Assembly (NCBI RefSeq): GCF_041429775.1
Contig: NZ_CP163421.1
Coordinates: 2,009,001 to 2,073,000 of the forward strand
DNA from: Glycocaulis abyssi
GTDB taxonomy: Bacteria; Pseudomonadota; Alphaproteobacteria; Caulobacterales; Maricaulaceae
DNA: 64,000 nt
Reading direction: 5' to 3'
This document shows positions 57,391 to 64,000 of the stretch, one piece after another. Every line of letters begins with the position of its first letter. Positions within the stretch are counted from its first letter, which is position 1. The notes below the pieces were generated by a model that saw only the letters and a program-made list of their open reading frames with translations, was not told the DNA's origin and did not search any database. The position numbers and the translations under genes are program-made.

Positions 57391-57921
57391 TCAGTCACCC
57401 GCCGCATCAGTCCTTGCCGACGGCATGGAGGTGAGAACATGCGGCCAGACGCGCTCGAAATAGGTGAAAGCCTCATCCCATGCCTCGCCCTCCCCCCAGC
57501 CTGAATGGGTCAGGTTGATTCGGGTACGGGCCTCATCCAGCGTCTCGAACCGCAAGACGAGATGAGTGTGGTGCGGGCGCACCTCGGCCATGTAGGGCGG
57601 CATCGCCCAGCTGACCGAGAGCATGCGGTTTTCCTGATACCCCAGAACGATCGTGTCTTCAGAGCCGCGCTGGCCGGGCTCGGCATCGGGTGCGAAGAAC
57701 AGCTCGAACGGGCCTTGCGGGCGCAGCTCAATATTGGCTGCCGGCGCGAAGAAGCTGGTGACGCCCTCATTCGTGGTCCAGAGCCGCCAGGCTTCAGAGA
57801 CCGGCAGTTCCACCACCACGCTGGCGGTTACCGCCCGCTCCGGCACGGGCGCAGGCGCGTCCTCCGCCCATGACGGCGCGGCCATGAAAACCAGCAGTGC
57901 AGCAGCAGCGGCAACTCGCAT
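57391..57921 (-). CDS. Exported SRPBCC/AHSA1-like protein
   Basis: 176 residues with a signal peptide ending at APSWA. The rest is an SRPBCC helix-grip domain of the AHSA1 type: VELPVSEAWRLWTTNEGVTSFFAPAANIELRPQGPFELFF. These domains bind hydrophobic ligands. The ATG shares one base with the stop of the upstream S9 peptidase gene (TGATG). No binding partner is known. Confidence 0.85.
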   Translation of the reverse strand: MRVAAAAALLVFMAAPSWAEDAPAPVPERAVTASVVVELPVSEAWRLWTTNEGVTSFFAPAANIELRPQGPFELFFAPDAEPGQRGSEDTIVLGYQENRMLSVSWAMPPYMAEVRPHHTHLVLRFETLDEARTRINLTHSGWGEGEAWDEAFTYFERVWPHVLTSMPSARTDAAGD

Positions 57922-59846
57922 CAGTCCAGCTCCAGAACATCCCTCAGAAACAGGGTCTCGGCCTCGCGCTGGAAGTCGCGGTTGGACTGGCGCGCAAAGC
58001 CATGCCCCTCATCCATGGCCACGAGATACCACGGATCACCGCCCGCTTCGCGCACGGCGGCGAGAATCTGCTCGGCCTCCGAGAGCGGCACGCGTGGATC
58101 ATTGGCGCCCTGAATGATGAAGAGCGGGGCCGTGATGCGGTGGGCGTGATTGGCGGGCGAAATGCTCTCCAGAAACTCGCGCACTTGCGGGTCACGCTCA
58201 TCGCCGTATTCGGCGCGGCGCAAATCCTGCCGGTAGCCGGCCGTGTTTTCCAGGAAGGTCACGAAATTGGAGATGCCGACAATATTGATGCCGCCCGCCA
58301 GCCGGTCGGAGTAATGCACCAGCGAAGCCAGCACCATATAGCCGCCATAGGAGCCGCCATAGACAACCACGCGGTTTTCGTCGAGATCGGGCTGGGTGGC
58401 GATCCAATCGAGCAGCGCGCCGATATCGCGCACCGAGTTCTCGCGCAGGAACACATTATCCAGATTGACATATTCGTTCCCGTACCCGGCCGAGCCGCGC
58501 ACGTTTGGCACGACAACCGCCGCGCCCAGCTCGTGCTGCCAGTACTGGAAGGCAGCGTTGAAGCCGGGGCGGGCCTGGCTTTCCGGCCCGCCATGGATGG
58601 AGACTATCACCGGATAGGGACCGTCGCCGGGCGGGCGATGGACAAAGGCGGGAACTTCCAGCCCGTCAAAGCTCTCATAGCTGATCAGTTCAGGGGTCTG
58701 GAAACGGCTGGTGTCGAGCCCGCCCACTTCGGACTGTGTCCACCGGACCAGCTCCTGCCAGGACAGGTCATAGGTCCACGCGTCACCCGGTGAGGCAGCC
58801 GAGCTGTGAGTGAAGCCGATAAGCGAGCCATCCGCGCTGAAATTGATACCGCCGATCAGGCCAACCGGCAGGTCAGGGGCGGGCAGCCGCTCGCCACTGG
58901 CCGCGTTGATGATGTAGATTTCCGAGATGCCGCCTTCATTGGTCGTGTAGGCGATGGTCGAGCCATCCGGGGACAGCGCCATGGCCTGCACATCCCAGTC
59001 ATGCTCGGCAACGATGCGCTTTTCACCGCCATCCAGCGGGATTTCCATGATGCGGCGGAATTCTGACCCTTCGTCGGTTACGACGAAAATGCTGTCGCCA
59101 CTGGCCGAGAAGCGGGCCGCGCCATATGCATTGGTCTCGTCCGGATTGATCTGGGTAAGCGTGCCCTCCCCGATATCAAGCACGTAGAGCCTTGCCTCGT
59201 TGATCGAGAAATACCGCCCGATCAGCAGTTTCGACCCGTCCGGCGACCAGTCCACCGGGCTCATCGCGCCTTCGCCCTGCAGGACTTCCTGCGCGGTCGT
59301 CGGGTCGGCCGGATCGGCCATGTAGATGGTGTAATCGGCATCACCCCAGCCGGCCGCCGCCCAGGCAATCATCCGGCCATCGCGTGACCAGGAAAAACCC
59401 TGATTGCGGATCTGGTCGGTGGTGAACTGGATGGAGCGTGATTGTTCGGGATCAAAGAGGAAGCCCTGGAAGAACTCGTCCCCGCCGACATCGCGGGTGA
59501 AGAGAAACTGGCCTGAGCCATCCGGGCGGATGGTCGCCCCGCTGGTGCGCTCGTCATAGAAGGTGATCTGACGGCGCGCGCCCATGGGCTGAGCGACGTG
59601 GTGGATCTGGTCGGTCTCGCCAAAACGCGTGGTGATGTAGATGCCGCCATCGGGGGCAAAATCGGAGAACATCGCTCCGCGCACATTCTGATACTGGCGC
59701 AAACGCTCGCGCACCTCGCCGGGAATCTCCGGGATGTTCTCCATCACCAGATTACCGCGTGTCACCCGCTCCGGGGCGCTCTGCGCCAGGGCAGGCGAGG
59801 CCAGTATCGCGGCCACACACATCGCGGCGGGCAGAATCATTCTCAT
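57921..59846 (-). CDS. Secreted S9 family peptidase, second paralogue
   Basis: 641 residues with a signal peptide (ILPAAMCVAAILASPALAQ). TolB/WD40-like propeller repeats are followed by the catalytic domain: HGGPESQARPGF, Ser499 in GGSYGGYMV, Asp583 in GANDPRVP and His615 in DEGHGF. It belongs to the dipeptidyl/acylaminoacyl-peptidase group. It is 71 bases downstream of an M16 peptidase gene. Start at 59846 preferred over the upstream GTG. Confidence 0.94.
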   Translation of the reverse strand: MRMILPAAMCVAAILASPALAQSAPERVTRGNLVMENIPEIPGEVRERLRQYQNVRGAMFSDFAPDGGIYITTRFGETDQIHHVAQPMGARRQITFYDERTSGATIRPDGSGQFLFTRDVGGDEFFQGFLFDPEQSRSIQFTTDQIRNQGFSWSRDGRMIAWAAAGWGDADYTIYMADPADPTTAQEVLQGEGAMSPVDWSPDGSKLLIGRYFSINEARLYVLDIGEGTLTQINPDETNAYGAARFSASGDSIFVVTDEGSEFRRIMEIPLDGGEKRIVAEHDWDVQAMALSPDGSTIAYTTNEGGISEIYIINAASGERLPAPDLPVGLIGGINFSADGSLIGFTHSSAASPGDAWTYDLSWQELVRWTQSEVGGLDTSRFQTPELISYESFDGLEVPAFVHRPPGDGPYPVIVSIHGGPESQARPGFNAAFQYWQHELGAAVVVPNVRGSAGYGNEYVNLDNVFLRENSVRDIGALLDWIATQPDLDENRVVVYGGSYGGYMVLASLVHYSDRLAGGINIVGISNFVTFLENTAGYRQDLRRAEYGDERDPQVREFLESISPANHAHRITAPLFIIQGANDPRVPLSEAEQILAAVREAGGDPWYLVAMDEGHGFARQSNRDFQREAETLFLRDVLELD

Positions 59847-59917
59847 CAACACATACTCCCTCTGGCTGTCCGGCGGGCGGGTGCTGCGCCCGTCCTCAGG
59901 CTGGATGCGCGGGAGCG

Positions 59918-62847
59918 CTATTCGCTCCCATCTGCGCTGCGCGGCAGGATCGACACCCGATATGCCTGCTCAGGCGAAAGATACTCTGACGCCAGCGCGG
60001 CGATCTCCTCGGCCGTCACCGCGTTATAATCCTCTACAGCCGTGCGCAGCCGGTCCAGACGTTCAGGATAGGTCTGCGAGCGGCTGATCTGGCTCAGCCA
60101 CATCCTGTTGCTTTCCATGCTCTGGTTCAACCGCTCCAGCACCGGTTGGCGCGCGCGCTGCAGCTCATCCTCGCTGATATCGCCTGCCGCCATCGCGGCG
60201 GCCAGCTCATCGGCAATCGCATACATGCGCCCGACATCCTCGCGGTCCACATCCAGTCCCACCCACAAGAAGCCAAAGCCGGGAAAGATGGTGGAGGTCT
60301 GACTGGACACGATGGGCGAGTAGGTTGCCCCCTCCCTCTCCCGGAAGCGCTCGGTAGCTTTCAGATTGTAGACTTCAGCCATCAGATCGAGCGCGCGGGC
60401 GCGCCGGGGATCGAACGCATCGCCGACAGGCCAGTATATGTTCGCCATGCCGCTATCGGCCTGACCGTTGAACTCCACGACGGCCGGGTCGGCACGCGGG
60501 TCCGGGAAGCCGAGCTGGCGGGCCTCGTCATAATCCGGCCAGCTGTCAGCGCGTTGCGGCAGGGCGCCGAATGTGCGCGCCGTCATGGCAATGGCATCAT
60601 CGCGCGTAATATCGCCGACAATGGTGATCTCCAGCGGTGCCGTGCTGAGCGCTTCGGCCACCAGCAAGCGGGCATGATCCATGGTGAATGCGGCAATTTC
60701 CCCGGCTTCGGGGAAACCCCAGCGCGGATCGCCATTGCGCAGCATCCGGCTGACCCGGTTCACGGCGACCTGTACGGCCTGCGCGTTCTGACCCCGGCGC
60801 ACTTCCTCGGCGATGGAACGGAACTGGTTCAGGCCGTCATCGCGCCAGCCCGGCGCGACCATGAAGGCGGTCAGCACCTGCATCTGCAGCTCGAAATCGT
60901 CCGGCGTTGTGGCGGAGGTGAAGGAAAAGCTGTCTGCGCCCACGCCGAGGCCATAGCCGACCGAACGGCCCGCCAGCAGGCGTTGCAGCTCGTCGCGGTC
61001 GTGGGCTTCCAGCCCGCCACCGCCAAACACCGCGCCCAGAATGGTGCCTGCGGCCGGTGTCGGCTGGGGCGTGAGATCGCCGGCGCCGAACTCGGCGCGG
61101 ATGCGGATGATATTGTCCTCGAAATCGGTCTGCTTGACGTTCAGCCGGACACCGTTGGCAAATACGATCTGGTGAAAATCGAGATCCTCGACATAAGAGG
61201 CCGAGACCACCTCTCCGGCTGGTCCGAAATCGGTATAGGCAAACTCGTTCGCGTCCACCTCGTCCATCGGATCAACCGGGGTGGACTGCGATTCGCTCCA
61301 CGCCTCGCGTACCGCCGCTTCCCCGTCTTCAAGCGGCTCGTTGACGGCGACATAGATTTGCGCCGGCGCCGCCGCCCAGATGGCGCGGAACGCGGCCTCG
61401 ACATTTTCGAGCGTCAGCTGGTCCTCGCTGGCTTCCAGCCATTCGGCCTTCCAGGAAGGATGGTGGAGCGTTGATCTGCCCAGCCAGCCCTGCCAGATAC
61501 CGTCGGCCAGTTCCGGCGTGCGGCGCGTGCGCGCGGCGTTGACCGAATTGCGCACGCTGGTGCGCAGATTGGACATCTGCTCATCCAGCTCGGCCTGGCT
61601 GAAGCCGTGCTCCAGCGCCCGGCGCACCTCCTGCTCGACAACGGCCAGCCCTTCGCGCCAGCGCTCCGGCGACAACACCGCGAACACGCCCGCGCGATGG
61701 GCAAGGTCAAAATCGTTCGTGTAGGAGAAGTTTGCCTGCACCAGCGGCGACAGGCCCGAATTGATCTGCGACTGCAAACGGCGCTGCACGATGGCATTGC
61801 CCAGCTGACGCAAGGTGGACTCCACCCGCGCCTGCGCACTGTCGGGGCGGGGGACGCCGGGCACAATCACATCATAGGTAATCAGCGTGAAAACTTCAGG
61901 ATCGTGGAAATAGCCAAAGCGCGGCGCGTCCACCGCGCTGACGGTCCCGATATCGGGATGGGCTGGCGCATCAGCGGGCGCCTGCCAGGTCGAGAAGCCC
62001 TCAACCGCGCTGACCTCAAGGCCGGGAAGCTCGATATCGAACCCGTCGCGGATCATCACCTCGATGGCGTCAGCGTCGATATCGCCGGTTACCACCAGAA
62101 GCGCGCGCTGGGGCACGTAGAAGTCCTGATAGTACTCCATGAAGGCATCGCGCTGTGCGTTATTGATGACGTCCAGCGTGCCGATAGGGCTGCGCTCGGC
62201 AACCAGCGTGTCGGGGTAGAGAAAGCCGTAATAGCTCATCAGGAAGCGCTGGATGGGCGTATCGCGATAGCGCATCTCGCTGCGGATTACGCCGCGTTCT
62301 GAGTCAATCGCGTCCTGGTCCATCACCATTTCGGTGGCAGTTTCGCGCATCAGGAACAGGCCGGTCTTGACGATCTGCTCCTCCACCGAGGGCAGATCGA
62401 GCTGATAGCCGACCACCTCCTGGCCGGTGAAGGCGTTGGTGTCAGGGCCGAACGCCAGGCCGTAGCGCTCCAGAAGCGGGATCATCTCGCCTTCTGGCAC
62501 ATTGGTGGTGCCGTTAAAGGCCATGTGCTCGATGAAATGGGCCAGCCCGCGCTGATGTTCGGCCTCGGCCAGCGAGCCCACATTGAAGACCAGACGCAAG
62601 GCCGCCGTACCGCTGGGCGTCGAATTGGGCATGATGGCGTAGCGCATGCCGTTATCGAGCTGGCCAAAGCGTATGCCCGGATCGGCCGGATCCCGCTGGT
62701 AAGATGGGCGAACTCTGTTTCGATACCCCCAGCCGCCGCATCACCGGCTGGCACGTCACCGGTATGGGCCGGGTCATCGGCGCACGCCGCGAGGGCGAGT
62801 AGCAGAATACCGGCGAACAGACCCTTGGCGGCGTTGACGGTTTTCAT
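59918..62847 (-). CDS. M16 family zinc peptidase, apparently frameshifted
   Basis: The first part (ATG 62847) encodes a lipoprotein signal (MKTVNAAKGLFAGILLLALAAC); the rest of the peptidase lies in another frame. The frames join if one more base is present in the C5 tract at 62726-62730: the product then reads on into YQRDPADPGIRFGQLDNGMRY and the 909-residue remainder. The zinc motif HFIEH is in RGLAHFIEHMAFNGT, and two M16 repeats are complete. So either the sequence has a one-base error or the gene is disrupted. Alternatively translation could restart at 62647 without a signal. Neighbours are another secreted peptidase and a peptide transporter ATPase. Confidence 0.82.
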
Positions 62848-62949: not shown

Positions 62950-64000
62950 TCAGACCGGATCATGTTCGGCGACCCAGTGGCCAGGCGTAACCTCCAGCAA
63001 TTGCGGCCGGTACTGCACGGCATCGTCGCCATCGACGAGGCGCGATTTCAGGAAGCGCAGCTGCGCGCGGCTGTCGAGCGGGCTGGGAAGGTCGCCGGAA
63101 AGCTTGATGCGCTCGCGCTGGCGTTCGATCTGCGGGTCGGGGATCGGCACCGCAGAGATCAGCGCGCGGGTATAGGGATGGCGGGCATCGTCATAGATGG
63201 CATCGCGGGTGGCGAACTCCACGATCCGGCCCAGATACAGCACCATCACGCGGTGAGAGACCTCGCGCACCACAGACAGGTCATGCGAGATGAACAGCAT
63301 GGACAGGCCCAGATCGCGCTGCAGGTCCGCCAGAAGGTCAATGATCTGAGCCTGGATGGACACATCCAGCGCCGATACCGCCTCATCACAGATGACCAGT
63401 TTCGGGCTGAGGATCATCGCGCGGGCAATGCCGACGCGCTGGTTCTGACCTCCGGACAGCTCGTGCGGGTAGCGGTTTATCATGTCAGGGTCCAGCCCGA
63501 CCCGCTTCATCATCGCGCGTACCGCCTCGTCGCGCTCTTTGGCCCGTATACCGGGCCGGAAGGTCAGCAGCGGCTCGGCGATCGACGCGCCAATGGTCAT
63601 GCGCGGATTAAGTGAGGCAAGCGGATCCTGGAAGACAATCTGCATGTCCTTGCGCGCCTGACGCATGTCGCGCGCATTCTTCTCCAGCAGGTTGGTGCCG
63701 ATCCAGCTGACGGCGCCGTCAGTGGATTCCACCAGCCGCAACACCGCCCGGGCGAGCGTGGACTTGCCGCACCCGGATTCTCCCACAATACCGATTGTCT
63801 CACCGGGCAGGAGGTCAAAACTGACACCGTCAACGGCTTTCAGCGGGGTCATTTTCGGAAACAGGCCCGTTCCGTCAGGCACCGGGAACCAGACCTTGAG
63901 GTCCTTTACCTCCAGAACCGGCTTTTCGCCTTCAACCGCCTTGCGGGTCTGGGTGATCGGGCCGGTAATCCGGTCCGGCCGGTCCAGGCGCGGCATCGCA
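62950..64000 (-). CDS. Oligopeptide/dipeptide ABC transporter ATPase, partial at right edge
   Basis: At least 348 residues. Walker A GESGCGKST, signature LSGGQNQRVGIARAM and Walker B LVICDEAVSAL show one DppF/OppF-type ATPase. It starts MPRLDRPDRITGP, which looks like the end of a preceding OppD-type domain (usual ...SIPRLDG...), and the frame is open to the edge. It is therefore probably the second half of a double (YejF-like) ATPase. The C-terminal region lacks the Cys residues usual in these ATPases. Confidence 0.88.
   Translation of the reverse strand, partial: AMPRLDRPDRITGPITQTRKAVEGEKPVLEVKDLKVWFPVPDGTGLFPKMTPLKAVDGVSFDLLPGETIGIVGESGCGKSTLARAVLRLVESTDGAVSWIGTNLLEKNARDMRQARKDMQIVFQDPLASLNPRMTIGASIAEPLLTFRPGIRAKERDEAVRAMMKRVGLDPDMINRYPHELSGGQNQRVGIARAMILSPKLVICDEAVSALDVSIQAQIIDLLADLQRDLGLSMLFISHDLSVVREVSHRVMVLYLGRIVEFATRDAIYDDARHPYTRALISAVPIPDPQIERQRERIKLSGDLPSPLDSRAQLRFLKSRLVDGDDAVQYRPQLLEVTPGHWVAEHDPV

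Follow-up and report, generated by a model that had tools for sequence, protein, structure and literature searches.

A One-Base Loss Private to the Glycocaulis abyssi Assembly Divides a Predicted Exported M16 Peptidase Gene

Results

Why do a lipoprotein signal and the M16 peptidase that follows it lie in different frames in Glycocaulis abyssi? We addressed this question in a window of 64 kb—the whole stretch of DNA analyzed, C1:2009001-2073000—from strain LMG 27140, whose genome of 3,053,755 bp consists of two contigs (completeness 100, contamination 0.12). The contig C1, at 2,883,807 bp, has the length of the larger of the two published replicons (2,883,807 and 169,948 bp; PMC11559359).

A first-pass annotation had described signal and peptidase as being in different frames one base apart, and this is borne out. 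On the minus strand, the frame carrying the lipobox signal MKTVNAAKGLFAGILLLALAAC (start 62847; LAAC within LLALAAC, read by eye) is out of phase by one base with the peptidase frame, to which it is not joined in the G. abyssi sequence. Both M16 Pfam domains in the latter exceed their gathering scores (PF00675, 76.3 bits with a cut-off of 22.3; PF05193, 93.1 bits with a cut-off of 23). M16 peptidases are recognized by HxxEH and then a distal Glu. Counted from 62647, the metal-site motif is HFIEH at residues 37-41 and E117 lies in ERGVIRSE. A pattern search for a C-terminal M16 motif gave no match. PqqL-like M16 peptidases of known structure (PDB 6ofs and 9ldy) are distant in sequence from the predicted G. 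abyssi peptidase but match it over its whole length (1.9e-40 and 5.8e-52, respectively) and have the HxxEH metal site in common with it. Comparison with relatives shows the locus to be one gene, predicted to encode a long, PqqL-like M16 zinc peptidase that is exported as a lipoprotein; at 62686-62694 the assembly is one base short (Table 1).

Table 1. Features of the M16 peptidase locus, in window positions
Feature	Position	Strand	Remarks
S9 prolyl-oligopeptidase-family gene	57921-59852	-	PF00326; comes after the M16 gene
M16 peptidase frame	59918-62740	-	Open after stop at 62741-62743; homology restarts at about 62689
Lipoprotein signal frame	62482-62847	-	121 aa as written; first 53 residues (62689-62847) conserved, remainder out of frame
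Frame-break site	62686-62694	-	One base fewer than relatives; in or beside GGATCC (62688-62693); coding signal on both sides
C5 tract of the first-pass annotation	62726-62730	+	Not the break site; signal frame conserved past the tract
Oligopeptide ABC transporter ATPase	62950-63996	-	PF00005, PF08352; upstream, intact, outside the break

As written, translation from 62847 would give the lipoprotein signal and 53 conserved residues and then run out of frame to a stop at 62482, so that the gene as drawn would be a null allele: 121 residues from the lipoprotein start and no exported peptidase. The peptidase frame has no ATG, GTG, or TTG between its stop at 62741-62743 and 62647, where the first start opens 909 aa (59918-62647, minus strand); this internal start would leave out both the signal and the first conserved segment.

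Where is the frame lost? The break had been placed at 62700-62760 and ascribed to the C5 tract, where one extra base would, mechanically, join the two frames. That much holds, but the frame survives the tract: reading from the signal crosses it and goes on in frame for a further 13 residues, GIETEFAHLTSGI, before leaving conserved sequence. These residues match G. albus at 13/13 positions, G. alkaliphilus at 12/13, and the HLUCCA04 MAG at 11/13, and only the first G of the alternative frame just past the tract, GYRNRVRPSYQRD, is common to the relatives. At the same place G. albus reads GIETEFAHLTSGI and then PADPGMRFGQLDNGMRY in one frame; G. alkaliphilus and the HLUCCA04 MAG read GVETEFAHLTSGI and GIQTEFAHLSSGI, respectively, each followed by PADPG. 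Because GIETEFAHLTSGI is still in the signal frame and the G. abyssi PADPGIRFGQLDNGMRY sits in the other (peptidase) frame, the frame must change after the Ile codon and before the Pro codon, at 62686-62694, just outside the interval first proposed and 32-44 bases beyond the tract. Alignments to G. alkaliphilus and G. albus have a net one-base gap at this site. Over the C5 tract, the alignment to G. alkaliphilus contains two compensating gaps with zero net change. On either side of the break, and as far as the break itself, substitutions fall mainly at codon third positions as set by the relatives' frame. The label of a homopolymer error does not fit a site where no run exceeds three bases and a homopolymer of six or more is absent. 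The C5 tract plays no part in the frame break, and its nearness is unremarkable in a window that contains 55 C or G runs at least five bases long.

Is the gene divided in other genomes? All 61 genomes searched, G. abyssi included, have a match at E <= 0.001. The match is strong (E <= 1e-100) in 45 genomes, and in the remaining 16, which include two drafts that are 70-73% complete, there are only weak partial matches to M16 proteins. The gene is intact and in one frame in all five other Glycocaulis genomes. The G. albus and G. alkaliphilus copies are the same gene as that of G. abyssi, sharing its peptidase (89% identity), lipobox signal, and S9 neighbor, but have signal and peptidase in one frame where G. 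abyssi is one base short. More broadly, the upstream part was read in 37 relative loci. Of these, 29 came from the 30 best matches (own included) and 8 from a further search; two duplicate others, leaving 35 distinct. Every one of the 37 has a single continuous signal-plus-peptidase frame with at least 59 codons ahead of the peptidase, a hydrophobic segment, and HxxEH. A strict lipobox pattern is present in 19 and a looser one in 10 more; four of the eight loci that fit neither have a cysteine in place, as judged by eye. An S9 gene follows the M16 gene, within a 1.5-kb flank, at 12 of the 37 loci (10 distinct genomes). Judged against these sequences, the one-base loss is private to the G. abyssi assembly.

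Does the divided gene bear marks of decay? Between G. abyssi and G. alkaliphilus, the dN/dS of the peptidase is 0.084. Among 205 genes of the same 400 kb, whose median is 0.093, this value ranks at the 41st percentile. Among four genomes, changes private to G. abyssi number 21 nonsynonymous and 67 synonymous, and the corresponding ratios in the other three are 9:58, 2:52, and about 38:105; the G. abyssi ratio is thus above those of G. alkaliphilus and G. albus and close to that of HLUCCA04, which is more distant. The peptidase gene gives no clear indication of decay, so the loss must be very recent if the cell carries it at all.

How common are such breaks in the assembly? Three 400-kb samples of G. 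abyssi were set against three of G. alkaliphilus, and one was set against 400 kb of G. albus; the third sample overlapped little (36 and 43 genes tested). Our first filters returned 24 and 31, then 26 and 25, candidate genes, mostly over-extended ORF starts. An earlier filter overlooked the M16 break when G. albus was the reference, and we substituted a two-sided test that accepted an uncompensated gap only if coding signal flanked it on each side; this strict test has a sensitivity below one and misses some cases. Of 422 genes tested in G. abyssi (505,042 aligned bases), two had clean internal breaks, the M16 gene and a YhhN-family gene; so did 2 of 432 genes (495,958 bases) of G. alkaliphilus 6B-8 (chromosome of 3,019,659 bp). 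In the comparison with G. albus, 1 of 135 G. abyssi genes was broken (the M16 gene), and in the reverse direction 1 of 151, by a 32-base gap. There is no excess of breaks in the G. abyssi assembly, and this result weakens, without excluding, an explanation by consensus error.

Two other candidates from the survey were set aside. An IspH/LytB gene was dropped, its break preceding the LytB domain. A G. abyssi sulphur-transport-like gene in C1:2320001-2720000, whose G. alkaliphilus copy (L069:10048-10842) is intact, shows one-base gaps at two places but did not pass the two-sided test, and we leave it out of the count. In the YhhN-family gene, from the same sample and likewise intact in G. alkaliphilus (L079:19130-19864), the break is one extra base outside any homopolymer; like the M16 break, this may be error or mutation.

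Is the break site one at which base modification might be expected? G. abyssi has two C5-cytosine methyltransferase genes (predicted; L162:1429-2661, minus strand, and L163:1486-3455, plus strand) and one of the N6/N4 type, and no D12-type methyltransferase was found in the genome. One C5 enzyme is Dcm-like with an N-terminal helix-turn-helix, is encoded near an HNH endonuclease gene, and is 95% identical in G. alkaliphilus. The gene for the other adjoins a NotI-family endonuclease gene (PF12183), and this enzyme is 94% identical in G. albus. GGATCC is rarer than expected in G. abyssi (observed/expected 0.38), more markedly than in G. alkaliphilus (0.58) or G. albus (0.52); this low usage is not decisive, and many palindromes are avoided in these genomes. 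Following methyltransferase genes and palindrome usage, we found no motif tied to the break site besides this low usage of GGATCC. A separate feature of palindrome usage is that AGGCCT is strongly avoided in G. abyssi (observed/expected 0.19) compared with G. alkaliphilus (0.75) and G. albus (0.91). The NotI-linked methyltransferase is not an obvious cause, because it is 94% identical in G. albus, which lacks the avoidance.

Discussion

Was the base lost during sequencing or in the cell? Sequencing error, fresh mutation, and a contingency tract had all been proposed; the first two remain, and one or the other probably accounts for the missing base.

We slightly favor, tentatively and at close to an even chance, an error in the consensus of an assembly made from native DNA by Nanopore alone; in that case the cell would carry an intact, ordinary gene. 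The assembly was built from Nanopore reads of a native-DNA library (Rapid Barcoding Kit, R10.4.1, SUP v4.2.0) and has no short reads; its consensus was made with Trycycler across 18 assemblies and then Medaka (PMC11559359). A break private to such an assembly, in a gene that is in one frame at every relative locus and is strongly conserved in its remainder, argues for error; the two predicted C5-cytosine methyltransferases and the position of the break at GGATCC, a site rarer than expected, may point the same way. According to the available text of PMC12506013, nearly all erroneous indels obtained with the same kind of kit were one missed base, albeit with a different basecaller version and in unpolished assemblies. 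In the same text, of 103 Neisseria rapid-kit indels, 77 coincided with or adjoined a methylated base, and for 18 there was neither methylation nor a homopolymer. Polishing with Medaka did not give a consistent gain in accuracy, as far as the available part of PMC11649196 goes. The G. abyssi break is like the errors described in those sections of PMC12506013 in its kit, its single missing base, and its conserved gene, but differs in having no long homopolymer and no tie to a known methylated motif.

Several observations weigh against error. All 28 Salmonella rapid-kit indels in the available text of PMC12506013 lay in homopolymers of six or more, while the G. abyssi site has no homopolymer and the consensus was drawn from 245x depth (PMC11559359). 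GGATCC was counted 212 times on both strands of the 1.2 Mb sampled, and no other gene break was found at any of the approximately 106 other sites. The gene can also be lost, judging from the 16 genomes with weak partial matches only.

We give a little less than an even chance to the reading that LMG 27140 has in fact lost the base, very recently, whether in its natural habitat or during culture. Such a deletion would make the sequence a null allele of the exported M16 peptidase, not a regulated state. The absence of a homopolymer at the site is in keeping with mutation; the similar numbers of breaks in G. abyssi and G. alkaliphilus make a natural background of such size plausible, and a second G. 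abyssi gene, of the YhhN family, is broken by an extra base. The genome is listed with 22 pseudogenes compared with 6 in G. alkaliphilus 6B-8 (PMC11559359), and the 16 of 61 genomes searched that are without a strong match to the gene belong to its own order. Against a recent deletion stand the lack of any trace of relaxed selection across 909 codons, the intact gene in 5/5 other Glycocaulis genomes, and the assembly's want of short-read support (PMC11559359).

A contingency tract that switches export of the enzyme by phase variation is very unlikely. The C5 tract is close to the break, and a change in its length would be another way to bring the two frames together, but the break is elsewhere: the criterion for a contingency locus is a frame change in a repeat tract that varies among relatives, and the change lies 32-44 bases away. 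Comparing tract length in relatives, as the first-pass annotation had suggested, gave no C/G run of five at this position in any of the 37 loci, although five of them have a C or G run of at least five elsewhere in the 130 bases before the peptidase start; a contingency switch is therefore unsupported. The continuous frame at all 37 loci and the 55 such runs in the window speak against it as well.

We consider it just as unlikely that the locus naturally encodes two products, a short lipoprotein and a cytoplasmic peptidase started at 62647. The ATG at that position does open a frame of 909 aa with the metal-binding motif, but none of the 37 relative loci, in which a separate short lipoprotein gene was looked for, is arranged in this way. 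The start at 62647 also omits the conserved RFGQLDNG segment, has no obvious ribosome-binding site before it (by eye), and is overrun by the signal frame, which continues 165 bases beyond it before a stop. Programmed -1 ribosomal frameshifting would act in the direction needed to join the two frames, but it is the least probable explanation of all, as the signal frame (62847-62482) contains no X XXY YYZ slippery heptamer and the relatives read need no shift.

What does the locus mean for G. abyssi? It is an ordinary gene for an exported M16 peptidase, short of one base in this assembly alone, and we see no evidence for a switch. That a tract lies close to a frame break does not show that the break is in the tract; protein-level alignment to a few relatives relocates the site. 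Were the deletion real and fixed, which we think unlikely, deep-sea G. abyssi would recently have given up an exported peptidase that all five of the other Glycocaulis genomes sampled keep in one frame, with the neighboring S9 peptidase and peptide-transporter genes still open. If the base is missing from the consensus only, a conserved exported peptidase wrongly appears broken in the public record of a type strain, and that record needs correction.
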